64,000 nucleotides of DNA. Origin: an uncultured Sulfitobacter sp. GTDB taxonomy: Bacteria; Pseudomonadota; Alphaproteobacteria; Rhodobacterales; Rhodobacteraceae. Of this stretch, positions 49,475 through 58,090 are shown one piece after another; position 1 is the stretch's first letter, and each line of letters opens with the position of its first letter. A program made the position numbers and the translations under genes. Where the stretch lies: positions 62,001 to 126,000 of the forward strand of contig NZ_CANMQS010000003.1 of assembly GCF_947500075.1 (NCBI RefSeq), given 5' to 3'. Under the pieces are notes generated by a model. The model made no database searches, was not told the DNA's origin, and saw only the letters and a program-made list of their open reading frames with translations.

Positions 49475-50113
49475 ATGCGCCGCCTGCTCTTCGCCCTGTT
49501 TGTCACCATGTACGGCCTGCCAGCACAGGCGGATGACGACAGAACTGGCGTATTTGACTACTATGTTGTCTCGCTCAGCTGGTCTCCAAACTGGTGCGCC
49601 ATCGAAGGCGATGCGCGCGATTCCCCGCAATGTGACACCGGCAGCGGACATGGCTGGATCCTGCATGGCCTCTGGCCGCAATACCATCGTGGCTACCCGG
49701 ACTTTTGCCAAACCGCTGAACGCCCGCCGTCCCGCACCATGACCCGCGACATGGCGGACATCATGGGCACCAGCGGGCTGGCCTGGCACCAGTGGCGCAA
49801 ACACGGCAGTTGCACGGGACTTTCGGCTCCCGCCTACTACGCCCTCTCCCGCGAGGCCTATGGCCGCATCACCCGCCCGGCAGTCTTCCGCAAGCTGGAC
49901 CGCGACATCGCCCTGCCCGCGTCGGTGGTCGAGGAGGCCTTCCTCAAGGACAATCCGGATATGGAACGGGACGGCATCACCGTGACCTGCCGGGATGGTC
50001 ATATCCAGGAAGTGCGCGTGTGCCTGTCAAAAAGCCTTGATCCCGTGCCCTGCGGAAGGGACGTTGTGCGTGATTGCAAGATGAAGGACGCTCTGTTCAC
50101 ACCGTTGCGTTGA
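49475..50113 (+). CDS. Ribonuclease T2 family protein
   Basis: A 212-residue secreted RNase. A signal peptide (residues 1-19) precedes the two active-site boxes HGLWPQ (64-69) and WHQWRKHGSC (104-113), with both catalytic His and the Glu replaced by Gln at the CAS2 position (WHQW for HEW). Cys pairs support a periplasmic fold. It would degrade RNA for phosphate or nucleoside scavenging. It is divergent from trcR. Confidence 0.88.
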   Translation: MRRLLFALFVTMYGLPAQADDDRTGVFDYYVVSLSWSPNWCAIEGDARDSPQCDTGSGHGWILHGLWPQYHRGYPDFCQTAERPPSRTMTRDMADIMGTSGLAWHQWRKHGSCTGLSAPAYYALSREAYGRITRPAVFRKLDRDIALPASVVEEAFLKDNPDMERDGITVTCRDGHIQEVRVCLSKSLDPVPCGRDVVRDCKMKDALFTPLR

Positions 50114-50149
50114 ACACCGCACCCGCAAGGTTTGATTGAAAGCGCGGAA

Positions 50150-50322
50150 GATATTTAAGGCCAAAAAGAGAAGAAAGAGCGCACCCTTTCTTCCCTTTCA
50201 AAAGAACGCAAGGCTCTCTTCTTGGCGCGGCCATCGGCGTCCCCGCCTGTTCCGCAGGTCCAATCAAAACGCAACGTAGTTAACAAATTCCTACCTTGCC
50301 CCTCTTTTTGGCCAAAAATATC
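50150..50322. repeat. 173-bp element with 21-bp inverted ends (MITE-like)
   Basis: The arms at 50150-50170 and 50302-50322 (GATATTT, two variable bases, GGCCAAAAAGAG) are inverted copies differing only at the two centre bases. The interior has no open frame of note. It fills most of the 312-bp gap between the RNase T2 and quinone oxidoreductase genes; the rest shows no gene. No target-site duplication is obvious. It could be a non-autonomous mobile element or a repeat that forms a long RNA hairpin. Confidence 0.6.
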
Positions 50323-50425
50323 CCTACACGCGGCCCGCCCGACGCGCGCCCATCGTTGGCGCATCACAACATGCGCCAAACGCACCCTCCAAAACATGGT
50401 GTCGCGCCTTGGCGCGTCCTTTGGA

Positions 50426-51412
50426 TCAGCCGCCGACCTCAAGCACGATCTTCCCGATGTGGCCGCTGCTCTCCATCCGCGCATGGGCGTCTGAGGCGGC
50501 TTCAAGATCAAATGTGCTGTCCATCACCGGCGCGATCTGCCCGGCAGAAAGCATGGGCCACACTGCCTCCCGCAACTCCTGCGCAATCCTGGCTTTCGCA
50601 AGATCGCTTTGTGGCCGCAGCGTTGATCCGGTCATCGTCAAGCGCCGGGTCATCAGCATGGCGAAGTTCACTTCGACCTTCGGGCCTTGCAGAAACGCGA
50701 TCTGAACCAACCGCCCATCTTCGGCGAGCGCCTTGAAGTTCCGGGGGATGTAGTCTCCCCCGACCATATCGAGGATGAGATCCGCGCCCCCTTCGGCCTT
50801 CAGGACATCGACGTAGTCATCGTCGCGGTAGTTGATCGCCACTTCAGCCCCCAGATCGACGCAGGCCTTGCATTTCTCATCAGACCCCGCAGTCACAAAC
50901 ACCCGTGCACCAAACGCGCGGCCAAGCTGGATCGCGGTTGTGCCGATACCGGATGACCCGCCGTGGACCAGCATCCGCTCTCCGGCTTTCAACCCACCGC
51001 GCATGAAGACATTGGACCAGACGGTAAAGAACGTCTCGGGCAGGCAGGCGGCTTCTTTCATCCCCATCCCCTCGGGCACGGCCAGGCAATGCGCGGCGGG
51101 GGTTGCCACATATTCCGCATAGCCCCCACCGGGCAGCAAGGCACACACCTGATCGCCCTCGGCAATCCCCGCGACACCTTCCCCGACAGCGACAACTTCG
51201 CCAGACGCCTCCAGCCCCGGCAGATCGCTCGCAGTGGGAGGCGGCGCATACATGCCCGCACGTTGCAGCGCGTCAGGACGGTTCACACCGGCATAAGCCA
51301 CCTTGATCACCACCTGCCCGTGGGCAGGGGTGGGCATGGGGCGTTCGGTCACCTGCAACACCTCCGGCCCGCCGGGTTTGGTGATTTCAACTGCGCGCAT
51401 GGTCTTGGTCAT
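50426..51412 (-). CDS. NAD(P)H-quinone oxidoreductase (PIG3-like MDR)
   Basis: A 328-residue zinc-free medium-chain reductase. It has MRAVEITKPGGPEVLQVTERPMP, VNRPDALQRAGMYAPPPTASDLPGLEASGEV, the NADPH loop VHGGSSGIGTTAIQLG and the motif AEVAINYRDDDYVDVLK. It reduces quinones or enones. The ATG at 51412 follows GGGAGAG. It is divergent from the acyl-CoA ligase gene, 106 bp away. Confidence 0.9.
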   Translation of the reverse strand: MTKTMRAVEITKPGGPEVLQVTERPMPTPAHGQVVIKVAYAGVNRPDALQRAGMYAPPPTASDLPGLEASGEVVAVGEGVAGIAEGDQVCALLPGGGYAEYVATPAAHCLAVPEGMGMKEAACLPETFFTVWSNVFMRGGLKAGERMLVHGGSSGIGTTAIQLGRAFGARVFVTAGSDEKCKACVDLGAEVAINYRDDDYVDVLKAEGGADLILDMVGGDYIPRNFKALAEDGRLVQIAFLQGPKVEVNFAMLMTRRLTMTGSTLRPQSDLAKARIAQELREAVWPMLSAGQIAPVMDSTFDLEAASDAHARMESSGHIGKIVLEVGG

Positions 51413-51518
51413 TCCGGTCTCTCCCGCCTGTTTGAACCGCACCATAGAACGCTGCCACCGCCGGTGCGAGCTTGTTTTGCCGCTTGGGACAGGCTGGCGG
51501 ATTTGCTAGAGCACGGGG

Positions 51519-52724
51519 ATGACCGATCTCCCCTCCTTCCAGTGGCATCCCGAAGCCCGGCTTTTTGATGCCACGGCGGAAGTGGCGCGCAGGCGGCGCG
51601 GTGGCACCGGTTTTATGTGGGGCAGCAGCACAGCGCTCGATATGCTTGGTGCGGCGGTGTTGGATCGCCGCCCGTTTTGCCTGAGTGACGCCGCGGCTCC
51701 TCCCGACATCCCCCTCGCTGATGGCCTGTTCCTGACCCAGAGCGGCGGCAGTTCCGGCACGCCAAAACTGATCCGCCGCAGCCAGCTCTCCTGGATCAAG
51801 TCTTTCGAAGTCAATGCGGTGCAGTTTGATATGACACCCCGCGACCGCGTTGCCGTGTTGGGCACACCGGCGCATTCTCTGGCGCTCTACGGGGTGTTGG
51901 AGGCGCTGCATCTGGGTGTTGACGCACATGTTCTGGCGCGGCTTTCCCCGTCCCGGCAGATGCAGGCGATGGCGGAGCGCAAAATCACTGTGCTCTATGC
52001 CACGCCGACCCAGATCAGAATGTTGATGGCGTCTGGTGCCCCTCTTTCCCTTCTTCGGCTGATCCTGTGCGGCGGGGGCCTGCTGGACACCGACACGCAA
52101 GACGCCGCACAGGCACATTTCCCCAACGCTGCCTTTCACGGCTTTTACGGCGCGGCGGAAACCAGCTTCATTACACTTGCGGGGCCGGACACACCGCAAG
52201 GCTCCGTTGGGCGGGTATATCCGGGGGTCAGCATCCGGATTCTGGATCAATCAGGCCAACCAGCCAAGGATGTCGGCACGGTTTGGGCGCGGTCGCCCTA
52301 CCTTTGCGATGGATACGCGGACGGGCGACCGTTGCGTCTGGAAGACGGCTACATCAGCGCGGGTGAAATTGGCCAGTTGGATAGAGATGGGTTTCTCTGG
52401 CTCAAGGGCCGCCATGACCGGATGGTGACCATCGGGGACGTGAATGTGTTTCCTGAAACCGTCGAAGCCACCATTGCCGCCATCCCGGAGGTGCAAAACT
52501 GCGCTGTGCTGCCGCAACCGGACCCACACCGTGGCCACCATCTGGTCGCGGTCATTCGTACGGATGTTCACTCTGACGCGCTGCAGATCCGCGACATCTG
52601 TCGGCACAGGCTAGGTCCGGCCATGACACCGAAACGGGTTCTGACCCACCCCGACTTTCCGCTGCTCCCCTCCGGCAAACCCGATCTGGTTGCCCTGATG
52701 CACTGGCTGGAGGACCAGCCATGA
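51519..52724 (+). CDS. Short AMP-dependent acyl-CoA ligase (YhfT-like), beside biotin transport genes
   Basis: A 401-residue ANL enzyme, about 100-150 residues shorter than usual because the N-terminal subdomain is missing; the P-loop TQSGGSSGTPK lies already at 73-83. The rest is intact: FYGAAETSF (A5), GRHDRMVTIGDVNVFPETVE (A8 hinge) and the catalytic Lys387 in LPSGKPDL. It overlaps the thiolase gene by 4 nt. The ligase-thiolase-bioY neighbourhood matches Bacillus yhfT-yhfS-yhfU. The acid substrate is unknown; a link to biotin or its precursors is inferred. Confidence 0.85.
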   Translation: MTDLPSFQWHPEARLFDATAEVARRRRGGTGFMWGSSTALDMLGAAVLDRRPFCLSDAAAPPDIPLADGLFLTQSGGSSGTPKLIRRSQLSWIKSFEVNAVQFDMTPRDRVAVLGTPAHSLALYGVLEALHLGVDAHVLARLSPSRQMQAMAERKITVLYATPTQIRMLMASGAPLSLLRLILCGGGLLDTDTQDAAQAHFPNAAFHGFYGAAETSFITLAGPDTPQGSVGRVYPGVSIRILDQSGQPAKDVGTVWARSPYLCDGYADGRPLRLEDGYISAGEIGQLDRDGFLWLKGRHDRMVTIGDVNVFPETVEATIAAIPEVQNCAVLPQPDPHRGHHLVAVIRTDVHSDALQIRDICRHRLGPAMTPKRVLTHPDFPLLPSGKPDLVALMHWLEDQP

Positions 52725-53815
52725 CGGCACATATTCTTGCCGCGTGCCGCTCCCCCGTGGCGCCCCGTGGTGGGCCGCTTCATGCCCTTGGCCTGCCGCA
52801 GCTCGGCGCGCCGGTGGTGCGGGCGGCATTGGCACAGGCGGGGGTCGCCCCTGCGCAGGTGGATGAAGTCATTGTCAGCACAGCACTTGGTCCGGGCGGC
52901 AACCCGGCGCGCAGCATCGCGCTGGCGGCGGGTCTGCCGGAACATGTCGCAGGGCTGAGCATTGACCGCCAATGTGCAGGGGGGATGGATGCCCTGTTGC
53001 TGGCCCGCGCGCTTGTTGAAAGTGGCGCAGCACAGGTTGTCATCGCAGGGGGCGTGGAGAGTTACTCCCGCGCACCGATCCGCCAGCAGACCTTTGCGGA
53101 CGGGCGTCCGCCGCAGCGCTATGACCAAGCCCCGTTCACCCCGTGGCCCGACCGTGACCCGGATATGGCAGAGGCGGCGGATGCCCTGGCCCGTCGCCTG
53201 GGTATCTCCCGCGCGGAGCAGGACGCATGGGCGGTGGAAAGCCACGCCAAAGCCCGTGCGATGACGCCCGGCGCGGAAGAGCTGACCCCATTGGAAACAC
53301 TCGACAAGGACCCCTTTACCCGCACCCTCACACCAAGACTTTGCGCCCGTGCGAAGGTCATCACCCGGACCATCACCCATGCCAATGCCGCCGTTGCCGC
53401 AGATGCAGCAGCGTTTTGCGTGGTGGTGTCGGACAGGTTGATCAAGGGGAAACAGGCCATGCGCATTCTGTCTGGCGCCACCAAAGGGGCCGACCCGACC
53501 TGCCCCGGTCTCGCACCGCTTGCCGCACTTCAGGCGGCGTTCGCGCAAACGGGCCTCAGCGCCAAAGACATGGCGGTGAGTGAGGTCATGGAAGCCTACG
53601 CCGTTCAAGCTATTGCCTGTATCCGCGAAGCCGGGCTGGACCCTGAGCAGGTGAACGTCGGCGGGGGCGCGCTGGCGCGGGGGCATCCCATTGGCGCGTC
53701 GGGGGCGATCAATACCGTGCGTCTTTTCCACGAACTGCGCCGGACAGGTGGCACGGGGCTGGCCACCATTGCCGCGGCAGGCGGGATCGGAACAGCGCTG
53801 ATTCTAGGAGCGTGA
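52721..53815 (+). CDS. Thiolase-family protein lacking the second cysteine (YhfS-like)
   Basis: A 364-residue thiolase fold. The acylated cysteine is Cys85 (DRQCAGGMDAL), and His322 is in RGHPIGASG. The C-terminal CxGGG cysteine is replaced by Ala (Ala351 in GLATIAAAGG), and the NEAF asparagine by Met290 (MEAYAV). With only two of the four usual catalytic groups, classical Claisen or thiolytic activity is doubtful. It is coupled to the acyl-CoA ligase and its stop overlaps bioY by 12 bases, convergently. Confidence 0.87.
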   Translation: MTAHILAACRSPVAPRGGPLHALGLPQLGAPVVRAALAQAGVAPAQVDEVIVSTALGPGGNPARSIALAAGLPEHVAGLSIDRQCAGGMDALLLARALVESGAAQVVIAGGVESYSRAPIRQQTFADGRPPQRYDQAPFTPWPDRDPDMAEAADALARRLGISRAEQDAWAVESHAKARAMTPGAEELTPLETLDKDPFTRTLTPRLCARAKVITRTITHANAAVAADAAAFCVVVSDRLIKGKQAMRILSGATKGADPTCPGLAPLAALQAAFAQTGLSAKDMAVSEVMEAYAVQAIACIREAGLDPEQVNVGGGALARGHPIGASGAINTVRLFHELRRTGGTGLATIAAAGGIGTALILGA

Positions 53816-54349
53816 CAACAGGCTGGCAGGCCGCGCCCGTGCGATGCCCGATGTGATCAACCCGGCCAGAACCGCCTTGATGATGTCACCCGGAATGAAT
53901 GCGGCGACAAGCGCCAGCGCCTCACCAAACCCTTTGTTCAGCATCACCATCAGCCCCGGAATACCAAAGGCATAGAGCACAACCACACCGCCCAGAACGG
54001 ACGCGATGCCAGCGGCCCAGGCGATCGACAGGCGCTGCATCTGCTCCATCACGAACCCGGTGGTAAACGCCGCAATCGGAAAGCCCACGATGAAGCCCAC
54101 GCTGGGTGCCGCAAAAACACCCAAGCCACCGCGCCCGCCAGCCAGCAAGGGCATGCCAAGCGCCACGAGGGCAACAAACAGCAAGGCCGCCAAACCGCCA
54201 CGGACGGACCCCAACACCGTACCACACAGCATGACACCAAGGCTCTGCGCGGTGATCGGCACGCCAAAGGCCAGCGTCAGCTGGGGGATCAGACCAAGTG
54301 CAGCAATCAGCGCCGCGAACAGGGCAATCAGGGCAATAGAGCGTTCCAT
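53804..54349 (-). CDS. bioY: Biotin transporter substrate-binding subunit BioY
   Basis: A 181-residue S-component with six helices. The opening MERSIALIALFAALIAALGLIPQLTLAFGVPITAQSLGVML and the biotin-binding GGRGGLGVFAAPSVGFIVGFP are specific to BioY. It is encoded downstream of bioN and bioM in the order bioM-bioN-bioY, 52 bp after bioN. It would bind biotin with high affinity and rotate it through the membrane. Confidence 0.95.
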   Translation of the reverse strand: MERSIALIALFAALIAALGLIPQLTLAFGVPITAQSLGVMLCGTVLGSVRGGLAALLFVALVALGMPLLAGGRGGLGVFAAPSVGFIVGFPIAAFTTGFVMEQMQRLSIAWAAGIASVLGGVVVLYAFGIPGLMVMLNKGFGEALALVAAFIPGDIIKAVLAGLITSGIARARPASLLSRS

Positions 54350-54401
54350 GGCGTATCCTTTGAGGGGTCGGCGGATGTCCTAGGCGCGGCACCCTGTAAG
54401 G

Positions 54402-54998
54402 TCAAGCACCGCCACGGGCGCGCAGGGCCTCTGCGACATGCTCCGCCTCATCCAGCGCCAGCGCGGTGAACGCCGGCACCAGCCGCCAGCCGGGTTTGCG
54501 CGGTGCCCGCGCCTGCCACGCCAGCGACAGCATCTGCCCCTTGCGGGCCAGTTCCGGGGTAAACCGGATCACCAGCGCCATTGCGATCCCGACAGGTCTG
54601 GTGTTCACCCCCAAAGCGCGCAGCGGCGTCATCGCCCAGTCCACCAATGCCATCATATCCGTGAGCCGCGTGGTCATCGTGACCAGATTTGCCAGCGCGA
54701 CCGCCGTCACCATGCGCAGCACGATTCCAGCACCATTGAGCGCATCTCCTGTTACCACATGATAGACCGCGATCACCGCCACAAACGGCCACAACACCCA
54801 CAGCCGCCCCAGCCCAGCGCGCAAGAACACCCACCCCGGCAGCGCATAAAGCACCAGCGTGCCGACAAGCGCCGCGCCCTGCCAAAAAACCGCATCCAAC
54901 CGGAAGAGCACCACCGTCGCGATGCACAAGAGCCCGATCTTGACACCAGCGCGCCATCCATGGGCCCGCGTTTCAACCGGAGAGGTGAGCGAGATCAT
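54402..54998 (-). CDS. bioN: Energy-coupling factor transmembrane subunit BioN (EcfT)
   Basis: A 198-residue T-component. It has hydrophobic segments at about 20-60 and 95-125 and the coupling helices with ARG-type motifs (WQARAPRKPGW near residue 160 and ALRARG at the end), which contact the ATPase. Its start overlaps bioM by 26 bases. With BioM and BioY it completes a dedicated biotin ECF importer. Confidence 0.9.
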   Translation of the reverse strand: MISLTSPVETRAHGWRAGVKIGLLCIATVVLFRLDAVFWQGAALVGTLVLYALPGWVFLRAGLGRLWVLWPFVAVIAVYHVVTGDALNGAGIVLRMVTAVALANLVTMTTRLTDMMALVDWAMTPLRALGVNTRPVGIAMALVIRFTPELARKGQMLSLAWQARAPRKPGWRLVPAFTALALDEAEHVAEALRARGGA

Positions 54999-55707
54999 CT
55001 TCGTCTCCCAACGCTTCCATACGTGCCACGAACTGCGGCACCACCTGCGCAGGCGGGCCGTCTTTGACGACCTGCCCCTGATCCAGCCAGATCACCCGGT
55101 CATAGGCGGCAATACCTGCCGGATCGTGGGTGATCTGCACCAGCGTGACATCAAGCCCCGCCAACACACGCGCCAACCTGCGGGTCGTGGGAATGTCGAG
55201 ACCGGCAAAGGGCTCGTCCAACACGATCACTTTCGGCGCCATCGCCAGAACAGACATCAAACAGACCAACTGCCGTTGCCCCTGTGACAATTGGTGGATG
55301 GCGGTCTGTGCCCAATGGGTCCGGTCAAATTGAGCAAGGATTGCCCCAACGCCTGCCGCCGCCTGCGTTTTGGAGCGGCCCATATGCGTCAGGCCAAAGG
55401 CGATTTCCTCTTCAACGGTGGGAAAAATGATCTGGTGATCGGGGTTCTGGAACAGGATGCCGATGACGCCCAAAGCAGCCTTGCGGTCCCTGGCCACGTC
55501 CACCCCGGCGATCCGGACCTGCCCGCCGTCCCCTGCAACCAGCCCCGCCATGATCCGCGCCAGTGAAGTCTTGCCAGAACCGTTGCGCCCGATCACACCA
55601 ATCCGGCGCTCATCGGCGCGCAATGTGATCCCGCGCAGCACCTCTGCCCCGCCGGGGGTATACTGCACATTGCTTAGATCAATCAGGGGGATGTTTGTTG
55701 AAGGCAT
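54973..55707 (-). CDS. bioM: Energy-coupling factor ATPase BioM (EcfA)
   Basis: A 244-residue ABC ATPase. The Walker A is GRNGSGKTS, the signature LSQGQRQ, Walker B VIVLDEPFAGLD, and the H-loop THDPAG. The Q-loop NPDHQIIFPTVEEEIAFGL is typical of cobalt/biotin ECF ATPases. It is the first gene of the bioMNY operon; no BioR-like operator could be found by eye in the 78-bp gap upstream. Confidence 0.95.
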   Translation of the reverse strand: MPSTNIPLIDLSNVQYTPGGAEVLRGITLRADERRIGVIGRNGSGKTSLARIMAGLVAGDGGQVRIAGVDVARDRKAALGVIGILFQNPDHQIIFPTVEEEIAFGLTHMGRSKTQAAAGVGAILAQFDRTHWAQTAIHQLSQGQRQLVCLMSVLAMAPKVIVLDEPFAGLDIPTTRRLARVLAGLDVTLVQITHDPAGIAAYDRVIWLDQGQVVKDGPPAQVVPQFVARMEALGDEDDLAHLSG

Positions 55708-55785
55708 AAACAGGCGTCACCATAGGGTCGAACGCCTGCCTAGCAGGTCATACGCCGGTGTCAAAGATGACCCAATCCTGCGGTC

Positions 55786-56472
55786 TCAGTCGCGGGGGGA
55801 CATCCAGGCGCCAGGCAAATCGCCCTTGGGGAACCGGGGCGGCGCCTTGATCTGGCTGAGCATCCAGCTTGGTCCTGCAAAGAGCTTGGACAGGGTCGGG
55901 CTCTTCTTCACCTGCGCCTTTACCTTTTCGATCTGCATCACGTTGTCGATGCGCCGGTCCAGAAACGCCCAGGTCGCTTCGTGGTTTTCGCTGCTGTCCC
56001 CCAGCCAGAACAACACAGTTGACGAATACACGCCGCTCAAGGTCGCCCGCTTGGTGTACCAGTTCACATCCGTGGAGGTATCGCCCAGCGCGTCCCAGAT
56101 CGCATCCGCCGTGCCCCAGATCAGCTTGGCCCCGTCAGGCGCGTATTGCGGCAGCGAAAACAGCGTGCTGCCCCGCCGCACGGCTTCCTTGTCGGTGATC
56201 CCTTCCAGCCGCAATTGGACCGCGCGGGCAATCTTGTCGCGAAAGCGCAGGTCGGACATGTCTTCGGTCTTCAGCGCCTCGATCATCTGATCATCGCCCC
56301 GTTTGTGGTAGGCCACCGCCAGATCCGCCCCGCCGCGCGGGCAAATGGCGCGGGCAACCGTGGGATCCATACCTGTGTCCTTCACGGCAGCCTGGAACGT
56401 GGACCGGGTCCAGCCATCGAAAGGCACGTGTACCAGTGCTGCATCCAGCAATTGTTCTTTCGGATCGGTCAT
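55786..56472 (-). CDS. COQ9 family ubiquinone-biosynthesis protein
   Basis: A 228-residue TetR-like lipid-binding protein that assists ubiquinone hydroxylation in alphaproteobacteria and mitochondria. The N-terminal HTH-like region is QLLDAALVHVPFDGWTRSTFQAAVKDTGMDPTVARAICPRGGADLAVAYH, and the C-terminal domain has DVNWYTKRATLSGVYSSTVLFWLGDSSENHEATWAFLDRRIDNVM. It is divergent from rpsU. Confidence 0.93.
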   Translation of the reverse strand: MTDPKEQLLDAALVHVPFDGWTRSTFQAAVKDTGMDPTVARAICPRGGADLAVAYHKRGDDQMIEALKTEDMSDLRFRDKIARAVQLRLEGITDKEAVRRGSTLFSLPQYAPDGAKLIWGTADAIWDALGDTSTDVNWYTKRATLSGVYSSTVLFWLGDSSENHEATWAFLDRRIDNVMQIEKVKAQVKKSPTLSKLFAGPSWMLSQIKAPPRFPKGDLPGAWMSPRD

Positions 56473-56503
56473 CTTTCACTCCTTCAAACACAACGATGCA
56501 GAC

Positions 56504-56532
56504 TCGACATCTCGCTTTGACGTTGATATAGG
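56504..56532 (+). promoter_or_regulatory. Candidate promoter of rpsU
   Basis: TCGACA (56504-56509) and TATAGG (56527-56532) are separated by 17 bp. Transcription would start near 56540, about 45 bases before the rpsU ATG. Confidence 0.4.
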
Positions 56533-56585
56533 GCGGTTTCCTGCAAATCCTTGCAACTTTATCCTAGAAAGGTGGTGACAACCAC

Positions 56586-56792
56586 ATGCAGGTTAGTGTT
56601 CGCGACAACAACGTCGATCAGGCCCTTCGGGCTCTGAAGAAGAAGCTCCAGCGCGAAGGCGTGTTTCGGGAAATGAAGCTCAAGCAACATTTCGAGAAAC
56701 CCTCCGAGAAAAAAGCGCGCGAAAAAGCTGAAGCGATCCGCCGGGCCCGTAAGCTGGCTCGCAAAAAAGCGCAGCGCGAAGGTATGATGTAA
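56586..56792 (+). CDS. rpsU: 30S ribosomal protein S21
   Basis: A 68-residue, highly basic protein bound near the anti-Shine-Dalgarno helix. [43 protein letters not shown] is the standard opening. AAAGGTGGT precedes the ATG. Here it is single-gene, with its own promoter and terminator. Confidence 0.97.
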
Positions 56793-56817
56793 ATCACCCT
56801 TCTGCTACCTGAGATAG

Positions 56818-56850
56818 AAACCTCCGCAAGCCTTGCTTTCGGGGGTTTTT
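56818..56850 (+). terminator. Rho-independent terminator of rpsU
   Basis: AAACCTCC (56818-56825) pairs with GGGGGTTT (56841-56848), with one G-T pair, around a 15-nt loop, then T-rich sequence. The 217 bp up to 57067 hold no gene and contain the promoter region of the CAP-RTX gene. Confidence 0.8.
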
Positions 56851-57067
56851 CTTTGGGCACAGGCAAGGCATATTCGCGGCGCTCGCTGCCGTAGTTGTTA
56901 CCTAAATTGTTCCGTAAATTGTGCGGGTATCCGCTTACATCACGCCCATTTGGGCGGGGTTTCGCGATTGTAAACACAATGCCACCCATTGGCCATTTCA
57001 ACGACACATTTCGGGGGATATGTCGTGATCTGCAACGGGACAAGAACGGTAATAGGAGACACCCCGA

Positions 57068-58090
57068 ATGTCGCAGGCAAGTATTGTCGAACGCGAGATG
57101 CTGGAGCTGATCAATGAGGAGCGCACTTCCCGTGGCCTCAATCCTCTCCAGCTAGAACAAAGATTGAATGATTCCGCTGAAACCCACAGCGAATGGATGT
57201 TGAACGCTGACGTGTTCTCCCACACGGGCCAAGGTGGTTCGAGCGCGGGAGACCGGATGCAGGATTCAGGATTCCAGTTTTCCGGCCAGTGGCGCTGGGC
57301 TGAGAACATTGCCTGGCAGAGCGAGCGCGGCTCTTCCGGCATCTCCGATGATGTCGCGAACCTGCATCAGAGCCTGATGAACAGCCCCGGTCACCGTGCC
57401 AATATTCTCAACCCGACCCTCGAATACATCGGGATCGGCGTTGAGGTGGGCAACTATAAGGGCTGGAATGCCGTCATGGTCACGCAGAACTTCGCAAGTA
57501 CAAGCGCCAGCGTGGTGCTTGATGGCGGAGGCGGCGGTACAACACCACCGCCGACGACTCCTGATCTGCCCGAAGGCACGAGCGGCAATGATACGCTGAC
57601 GCTGACCTCCTCAGGCGAAGTCGACGGTGGTGCCGGGCGCGATCTGCTCAACGGCTCTGGCGGCAACGATACCGTTGCTGGTGGACGTGGCGCTGACACC
57701 GTGATCGGCAACGACGGCGCTGACAAAGTGGTTGGCGGCGCGGGTGCTGATCTGGTGCAAGGTGGCGCCGGTGCAGACCGCGTGATTGGTGGTGGCGGCC
57801 GTGATACTGTTGACGGCGGCACAGGCAATGACGTCCTCACCGGCTCCGGCGGCAGCGACACCTTCGTGTTCAGCCAGGGCAGCGATTCGGTCAAGGACTA
57901 CGAAGTCACGCGTGACGGAGAGCGGATCGATCTTGGATCTGCCGTTGGCATCTCCAGCTTCAGCGATCTTGTGGCGAACCACATGTGGGAACGTGACGGA
58001 GACGTCATCATCCGCGATGCCGCAGGCAACCGCATGTTCATTCAGGACGTTGGTCTGGAAGAACTTGATTCAGGCGACTTCGTCTTCTGA
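57068..58090 (+). CDS. Secreted CAP-domain protein with RTX calcium-binding repeats
   Basis: A 340-residue protein. The N-terminal CAP/SCP domain (residues 5-150: LELINEERTSRGLNPLQ, HSEWML, FSHTG, HRANILNPTLEYIGIGV) is joined by a Gly/Thr/Pro linker to RTX nonapeptides (GGAGRDLLNG, GGNDTVAGG, GGAGADLVQGG) through residue 265, then a hydrophobic RTX-type end. No N-terminal signal peptide is present, which fits type I secretion through a C-terminal signal. No transporter is adjacent. Role may be adhesion or interaction with the environment. Confidence 0.9.
   Translation: MSQASIVEREMLELINEERTSRGLNPLQLEQRLNDSAETHSEWMLNADVFSHTGQGGSSAGDRMQDSGFQFSGQWRWAENIAWQSERGSSGISDDVANLHQSLMNSPGHRANILNPTLEYIGIGVEVGNYKGWNAVMVTQNFASTSASVVLDGGGGGTTPPPTTPDLPEGTSGNDTLTLTSSGEVDGGAGRDLLNGSGGNDTVAGGRGADTVIGNDGADKVVGGAGADLVQGGAGADRVIGGGGRDTVDGGTGNDVLTGSGGSDTFVFSQGSDSVKDYEVTRDGERIDLGSAVGISSFSDLVANHMWERDGDVIIRDAAGNRMFIQDVGLEELDSGDFVF

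Follow-up and report, generated by a model that had tools for sequence, protein, structure and literature searches.

The genes yhfT and yhfS are biotin-regulated in model bacteria (PMC4016012, PMC6391492), and the papers that we found describe their products as putative. In Bacillus subtilis, yhfUTS is under the control of BirA, which binds at the operator of yhfU (PMC4016012); in an Escherichia coli reporter strain, Staphylococcus aureus BirA half-maximally repressed the yhfS-yhfT promoter at 10.0 +/- 2.0 nM biotin (PMC6391492). In the parts of the literature that our search reached, no function in biotin metabolism is assigned to the yhfT-yhfS pair. Here we examine genes of these types in a stretch of 64,000 nucleotides from an uncultured Sulfitobacter sp. 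(the window: contig NZ_CANMQS010000003.1, positions 62,001 to 126,000), where a short AMP-binding ligase of the ANL family and a thiolase without its usual catalytic Cys378 lie next to a biotin importer of the energy-coupling factor (ECF) type. The ligase-thiolase pair has, almost certainly, a functional tie to biotin, and it may serve the salvage of chain-shortened biotin.

The ligase and thiolase genes overlap by 4 nt, and the thiolase gene and bioY are convergent with a 12-nt overlap. The S, T and A components of the importer are all present, giving a complete bioM-bioN-bioY operon. Open reading frames (ORFs), the 12-nt overlap and Pfam matches confirm the initial annotation in this respect, which had described a pair converging on a full bioM-bioN-bioY operon. 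In the source genome (4.86 Mb, 99.97% complete; the window lies on its contig C3), this bioY encodes the single BioY detected, and no BioB above the cut-off was found (best 34.7 versus 225 bits). Because of these two findings, the gene content suggests that the source organism is probably a biotin auxotroph relying on this BioMNY importer.

The product of the thiolase gene contains the Pfam domains Thiolase_N and Thiolase_C and passes the cut-off of TIGR01930 (acetyl-CoA C-acyltransferase; 271 versus 240.55 bits). The nucleophile of thiolases is Cys89. PMC3406046 gives Asn316 and His348 a role in shaping the oxyanion hole and names Cys378 as the residue that takes the proton in the Claisen step. 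Aligned to PDB chain 3ss6_A, the window thiolase keeps Cys85 (equivalent to Cys89) and His322 (His348), while Met290 replaces Asn316 and Ala351 replaces Cys378; the ordinary catalytic set Cys89/Asn316/His348/Cys378 is thus incomplete, with two of four residues kept. The enzyme is 35-39% identical to the Bacillus YhfS-type thiolases and does not reach the cut-off of NF005212 (PRK06690; 219 versus 498 bits). This model is narrow, and the source genome encodes six further thiolases that outscore the window thiolase on it. Orthology to YhfS from NF005212 scores alone was dropped on account of those six, and a tree and a residue test were used instead.

The tree holds 98 rows (95 different), without eight near-identical Bacillus rows and the thiolases of two loci that match in two reading frames. 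A single branch with support 100/100 separates 69 Cys378-less from 29 Cys378-bearing thiolases, and the window thiolase and Bacillus YhfS both fall on the Cys378-less side. A single change at position 378 suffices in 100% of 200 bootstrap trees. All 69 Cys378-less thiolases have Cys89, His348 and a D-x-Q-C motif. Position 378 is occupied by Ala (39), Gly (24), Pro (3) or Ser (3), and position 316 by Met (36), Asn (25), Thr (5), His (2) or Val (1). The initial annotation had counted two lost catalytic residues; both are lost in the window, and across the family only the loss of Cys378 is general. Since the split is fully supported, one change is enough in every bootstrap tree and residue 316 is mixed, Cys378 was probably lost once, early, with Asn316 following later in some lineages. 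The two loci left out of alignment and tree (L036 of genome G131, L058 of G176) carry a frameshift or a sequencing error in the thiolase gene. Sister thiolases with both D-x-Q-C and Cys378 occur at L186-L188, L190, L191, L241, L243, L247, L262 and L264, with no bioY seen in the opened loci; this set is a likely starting point of the Cys378-less group.

How regularly does the pair accompany the importer? Counting as a carrier any genome with a ligase match at E <= 1e-40, we found the ligase in 30/198 genomes of the family, with the thiolase gene directly beside it in 30/30. The pair adjoins bioM, bioN and bioY in 27/30 carriers (the window and 26 of the 29 others, with a weak bioN match in G017), which is more than chance. 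In G026, G059 and G125 it lies away from bioMNY, with bioY and bioN elsewhere in the genome. BioY is found in 174 of the 198 genomes and in all 30 carriers; BioN, which marks the bioMNY type, is found in 47 genomes and in 29 of the 30 carriers. The Fisher p-value for the pair against BioN is 2e-21, a descriptive figure, as related genomes are not independent.

The association recurs in distant phyla. With 4 or 5 candidates scored per genome, so that this count and the Bacillota and Actinomycetota counts below are lower bounds, a phylum-wide draw gave at least 13/398 positive genomes; ten were new, with bioY within ~8 kb in five and not in the other five. In Bacillus, bioY, ligase and thiolase stand in the same order in 11/79 loci fetched around subtilisin-type genes. 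These are yhfU-yhfT-yhfS (PMC4016012), and the trio that the initial annotation had placed in Bacillus is there and in other phyla. The pair also sits with bioY in Paenibacillus and in Actinomycetota. At least 23/378 Bacillota genomes (Cys378-bearing relatives included; 12 of the 23 opened) and at least 7/346 Actinomycetota genomes (7/7 opened) scored over threshold. In 26 loci from the two phyla, bioY is near 15/19 Cys378-less versus 0/7 Cys378-bearing thiolases; seven of the 19 were picked knowing that Cys378 was missing and blind to the proximity of bioY. Similarly, among 30 loci from the 41 genomes behind the Bacillus scan, ligase sequence accompanies 9/9 Cys378-less versus 2/21 Cys378-bearing thiolases. 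Over a non-random sample of 68 loci, the ligase is present in 67 and bioY lies within ~8 kb in 55, so the pair is not mostly away from biotin genes, an outcome that would have refuted the proposed tie to them.

Plasmids carry the same arrangement. Among 39 plasmid records with the thiolase, 11 were opened and bioY was next door in 10; no bioY stands beside the pair in the eleventh, from Rhizobium ruizarguesonis. The bioY-linked pairs come from Paracoccus yeei, P. aminovorans, Alloyangia, Pseudosulfitobacter, Marivivens, Thioclava and two Azospirillum, and tblastn in unannotated plasmid records added Microvirga and the actinomycete Nonomuraea. In both Azospirillum and in P. aminovorans, bioM-bioN-bioY-ligase-thiolase all run in one direction. 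The Azospirillum operons (L088, L273) have a major facilitator superfamily transporter gene after the thiolase in the same direction. In Paracoccus, Thioclava, Azospirillum and other genera the module is often borne by a plasmid or chromid, so it may move between strains.

We are interested in what the pair does, and the most telling neighbors are found in Bacillota. In Paenibacillus contaminans (L249), a single gene run on one strand comprises, in this order, bioY, ligase, thiolase, two hotdog proteins, a FabG-like short-chain dehydrogenase/reductase (SDR), two ECF ATPases, EcfT and a FabK-like flavoprotein. One hotdog protein matches FAS1_DH_region, and the other matches MaoC with HadB as its best NCBIfam model. 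Locus L239 carries the genes from the ligase through the FabK-like protein, with no recognised bioY. Two hotdog genes are also present in Salsuginibacillus (L248), Bacillus sp. Marseille-Q3570 (L250, together with an SDR) and Fictibacillus (L251). A hotdog-like gene precedes bioY in L242 (MaoC at 26.5 bits, slightly short of the cut-off, 27) and L245 (no Pfam match), the two being 34% identical, and L246 encodes a FabZ-like protein (50.9 bits versus a cut-off of 113). In total, dehydratase-type hotdog genes stand beside the pair in 8/13 Cys378-less Bacillota loci fetched, a count to be read with the occurrence of SDR and hotdog genes in Cys378-bearing control loci as well (hotdogs ~6 kb away, L241 and L247). 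Judged by protein family, the extended Bacillota set has the enzyme types that a C2-elongation round needs: a ketoreductase, a dehydratase and an enoyl reductase. These genes point to C2 elongation rather than activation alone, and we think it probable that the pair performs it.

The same neighbors bear on two other explanations. The ligase and the thiolase might only transfer acyl groups: biotin or a vitamer would be activated and passed from Cys89 to coenzyme A (CoA), acyl carrier protein (ACP), a protein or water, for example as a way of trapping or remodeling biotin after import. This would suit the retention of Cys89 and His348 in 69/69 thiolases with Cys378 absent and Asn316 changed in 44/69, and B. 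subtilis and most alphaproteobacterial loci have just the two enzymes; we hold it to be distinctly unlikely, because the hotdog, SDR and FabK-like partners under a BirA-type site (see below) would then be roleless. In biotin catabolism, the side chain would be activated and beta-oxidised, and a ligase, hydratase-type hotdogs, an SDR and a thiolase are enzyme types also used in beta-oxidation. However, biotin represses the operons of both Bacillus and Staphylococcus (PMC4016012, PMC6391492), the FabK-like reductase points the opposite way, thiolysis would be expected to need Cys378 too, and auxotrophs would destroy their own biotin. Inspection of the listed operon genes by eye turned up no acyl-CoA dehydrogenase; no family search for one was made. 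Catabolism is thus a very improbable explanation.

Outside Bacillota, a nitroreductase-family gene is near the pair in 15/68 loci, mostly alphaproteobacterial (L035, L036, L038, L040, L046, L047, L048, L052, L053, L055, L076, L081, L082, L086, L087), and it is also seen in L269-L272. It encodes ~225 amino acids, stands beside the thiolase gene, usually between it and bioY, and is absent from the window. Its product perhaps catalyses an enoyl or other reduction. A medium-chain dehydrogenase/reductase (MDR) gene is near the pair in 4/68 loci, and to cast nitroreductase and MDR genes as stand-ins for the enoyl reductase is guesswork.

Do the extended operons respond to biotin? We scanned whole loci for the BirA palindrome with <=3/16 mismatches and gaps of 15-17 (an earlier scan used gaps 14-16; gap 17 was added after the L249 site was seen). 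A BirA-type site heads the operon in 12/16 Cys378-less Bacillota loci with this motif; elsewhere, one site was found in the same 16 loci and one in 6 control loci. In L249, the entire elongation set is preceded by such a site, which has 1 mismatch and is 156 bp ahead of bioY. L245 has a gap-14 site with 2 mismatches, outside the 12/16 count, and L101, outside the wider scan, has no good site with gaps 14-16. The alphaproteobacterial loci scanned contain no strict-form BirA-type site. BioR control of the pair was set aside: no BioR box lies near the module in the window (no exact site; 9 with 2 mismatches elsewhere, 4.4 expected by chance), and none lies near the pair in 45 related loci.

Fatty acids spare biotin in some bacteria. 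BirA control and the partner genes resembling fatty acid synthesis (FAS) would also suit a biotin-sparing lipid route, in which ligase and condensing enzyme, in some bacteria together with reductases and dehydratases, activate and extend scavenged fatty acids when acetyl-CoA carboxylase fails for want of biotin, and the link to bioY is one of co-regulation; a review reports that YhfT serves fatty acids of surfactin and that it forms acyl-adenylates (PMC10988940). A route free of malonyl-CoA would, however, need the Cys378 base, which is absent. Moreover, no BirA- or BioR-type site was seen near the pair in the alphaproteobacterial family, yet bioMNY is adjacent in 27/30, and in the window the pair is convergent with bioY and not co-transcribed. 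We regard this route as unlikely, if far from negligible.

The distribution of BioB narrows the choice of substrate. BioB is present in 26/198 family genomes and 3/30 carriers (Fisher p = 0.77 for the pair against BioB, descriptive in the same sense). It is absent from 8/8 further alphaproteobacterial carriers, so that 35/38 alphaproteobacterial carriers tested lack it. Among 31 further carriers, 18 have BioB: 14/15 Bacillota, 2/6 Actinomycetota, 2/2 from another class of Pseudomonadota and 0/8 other Alphaproteobacteria. Because of the 35/38, the pair does not depend on BioB. The initial annotation had proposed a biotin-like acid as substrate, namely pimelate, dethiobiotin or shortened biotin. 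Pimelate and dethiobiotin both need BioB, which is missing from the window genome too, and are excluded as general substrates, so shortened biotin alone of the three fits all carriers. In carriers without BioB, the substrate would therefore already hold the sulfur ring, and only its side chain can be short.

These counts also bear on a pimelate-precursor route, in which a C5 dicarboxylate such as glutarate would be lengthened to a pimeloyl thioester by an analog of BioZ. There is precedent in BioZ itself (PMC7645780), and the 14/15 Bacillota carriers with BioB are compatible with it. Against this, BioB is absent from 35/38 alphaproteobacterial and 4/6 Actinomycetota carriers tested, the constant neighbor is bioY and not bioF/A/D, and the B. 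subtilis bioWAFDBI operon already has bioW and bioI (PMC4016012). We judge the route improbable.

The ligase is less uniform than the thiolase. In the window ligase, Pfam AMP-binding aligns only from profile position 155 of 384, followed by AMP-binding_C, and the protein has ~71 residues ahead of its alignment to NF005797, which begins at profile position 147. The protein, said by the initial annotation to lack its N-terminal subdomain, is thus truncated and not wholly without an N-terminal part; its frame is only 404 amino acids from stop to stop. It fails the full-length cut-off of NF005797 (YhfT-type), yet this model is its top NCBIfam match. The adenylation motifs A3, A5 and A8 and the A10 lysine (Lys387) are kept, with AGE instead of TGD at A7. 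Ligase starts in family loci were chosen under a 425-amino-acid ceiling, so that only the stop-to-stop frames give independent evidence of length: these are <=440 amino acids in 20/30 family genomes and 450-554 in 10/30. Shortness is not claimed for all family ligases, because the latter ten could start earlier, and one family member, G264 (L085), encodes a long one of 503 amino acids. Partners in other carriers are mostly ~440-525 amino acids, in a table that leaves out LcfB-type neighbors and the ORFs mis-called in L259 and L260; starts are uncertain in L246 (380 amino acids) and L257 (373). According to a review, B. subtilis YhfT forms acyl-adenylates and no CoA thioesters, its acyl group may go to ACP, and deletion of yhfT lowers surfactin (PMC10988940). 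This behavior fits an ACP-linked route resembling fatty acid synthase.

Bisnorbiotin is two carbons shorter than biotin, so one elongation round would give biotin. It is tempting to hypothesize that BioMNY imports both biotin and biotin whose valeryl side chain has been shortened by beta-oxidation, and that the ligase adenylates the carboxylate and attaches the acid to CoA or ACP in thioester linkage. The thiolase-fold enzyme would receive the acyl group on Cys89 and add two carbons. Malonyl-CoA or malonyl-ACP would be the most likely donor, with decarboxylation supplying the carbanion as in BioZ, because the enzyme lacks Cys378, which in other thiolases serves as the base to form the carbanion of acetyl-CoA. 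Ketoreduction, dehydration and enoyl reduction would then yield biotin; most genomes would borrow enzymes of fatty acid synthesis for this, and some Bacillota appear to have their own dedicated genes within the operon. We infer the substrate, the use of malonyl, the direction, the import of shortened biotin and the release of free biotin, and the missing Cys378 is the one sequence feature that suggests a malonyl-using condensation. Bisnorbiotin accounts for 13-23% of total biotin in human urine collected over 24 h (PMC9106636). BioZ, which makes pimeloyl-ACP from glutaryl-CoA and malonyl-ACP, is a precedent for a CoA primer and a malonyl donor in biotin metabolism (PMC7645780). Salvage of bisnorbiotin by re-elongation, taken as a whole, is an account that we put forward tentatively, at somewhat less than an even chance. 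Its more specific form, a vitamin-repair pathway in which imported biotin with a beta-oxidised tail is regrown by one C2 unit through a base-less thiolase turned malonyl-dependent synthase, is more doubtful.

Several observations weigh against this account. Biotin-starved cells have little malonyl-CoA. The loss of Cys378 may just as well signify a reaction without C-C bond formation, and L256-L259 have a Cys one residue before the 378 position. Specificity for biotin-like acids is read from gene context, and YhfT can serve fatty acids (surfactin fatty acids, according to the review; PMC10988940). Dedicated reductases are rare (ketoreductase-type SDR in 3/13 and FabK-like in 2/13 Cys378-less Bacillota loci), the FabK-like flavoprotein of L249 scores 294 bits, under the NCBIfam cut-off of 453, and the B. 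subtilis- and pumilus-type loci L240, L244 and L252-L254 have no dehydratase beside the pair; the dedicated elongation cycle is seen in few genomes. The lack of BioR-type sites belongs here as well. Finally, 13/68 loci have no bioY within ~8 kb (L051, L054, L057, L076, L077, L078, L083, L084, L090, L239, L246, L255 and L260, the last ending with its contig), and a side branch of the pair lies away from bioY. In L083, L084 and L090, ligase and Cys378-less thiolase occur with an MDR oxidoreductase gene nearby and, in L090, a thioesterase gene; these three are perhaps a branch with another substrate.

The features of the window are listed in Table 1. The PIG3-type MDR gene is divergent from the ligase gene across a 73-nt gap and is of uncertain membership in the module; it also adjoins the pair in the same-genus genome G055. 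There are no Rfam matches in window positions 50000-57000, and a promoter and terminator scan gave nothing beyond chance level.

Table 1. Features at and around the ligase-thiolase-bioMNY locus (positions within the window).
Feature	Positions	Strand	Evidence
PIG3-type zinc-free/zinc-family MDR oxidoreductase	50426..51445	-	TIGR02824, 473.7 bits, cut-off 296.8
Short ANL (AMP-binding) ligase, YhfT-like, 401 amino acids	51519..52724	+	ORF; Pfam; best NCBIfam NF005797, 217 bits versus cut-off 518
Cys378-less thiolase, YhfS-like, 364 amino acids	52721..53815	+	ORF; Pfam; residue alignment
bioY, substrate-binding (S) component of biotin ECF importer	53804..54349	-	ORF; Pfam BioY
bioN, transmembrane (T) component, CbiQ family	54402..54998	-	Pfam CbiQ, 26.8 bits, cut-off 25
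bioM, ATPase (A) component of ECF importer	54973..55707	-	Pfam ABC_tran
ORF with N-terminal CAP/SCP-like stretch, then GGxGxD-type repeats	57068..58090	+	Judged by eye from sequence

The extended operons suggest a specific reaction series for yhfT-yhfS. If the salvage account is true, these genes gain a function, bisnorbiotin is a hidden biotin pool in seas, soils and hosts that is open to many auxotrophs, and auxotrophs in at least three phyla live on the biotin waste of others. The thiolase group would also be a natural case of an enzyme with its nucleophile kept and its base lost.

The yhfUTS trio and its control by BirA are already known; new here are the cross-phylum module, the single Cys378 loss that the tree suggests, the elongation genes in operons headed by a BirA-type site and the finding that substrates which need BioB cannot be the general answer. 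Like B. subtilis yhfU-yhfT-yhfS and Staphylococcus yhfT-yhfS, for which BirA control is published, the window has the same gene types adjacent to each other and a thiolase of the same Cys378-less group. It differs in that its ligase is short, Asn316 is also lost, the pair is convergent to bioY and bioM and bioN are present, and in that no BirA- or BioR-type site occurs in the alphaproteobacterial loci scanned. With the described alphaproteobacterial BioMNY transporter it shares the bioM, bioN, bioY operon, to which two enzymes are attached here, joined by the nitroreductase-family gene in some loci. BioZ, a FabH-like pimeloyl-ACP synthase (PMC7645780), would be alike in its CoA-bound primer, malonyl donor and FAS-type reductions, whereas the window enzyme belongs to the thiolase family and not the FabH family, is linked to import and not to bioBFDA, and has a substrate that we infer. 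The biosynthetic thiolase (acetyl-CoA C-acetyltransferase) shares the fold family, Cys89 and His348 with the window enzyme, which has neither Cys378 nor Asn316.

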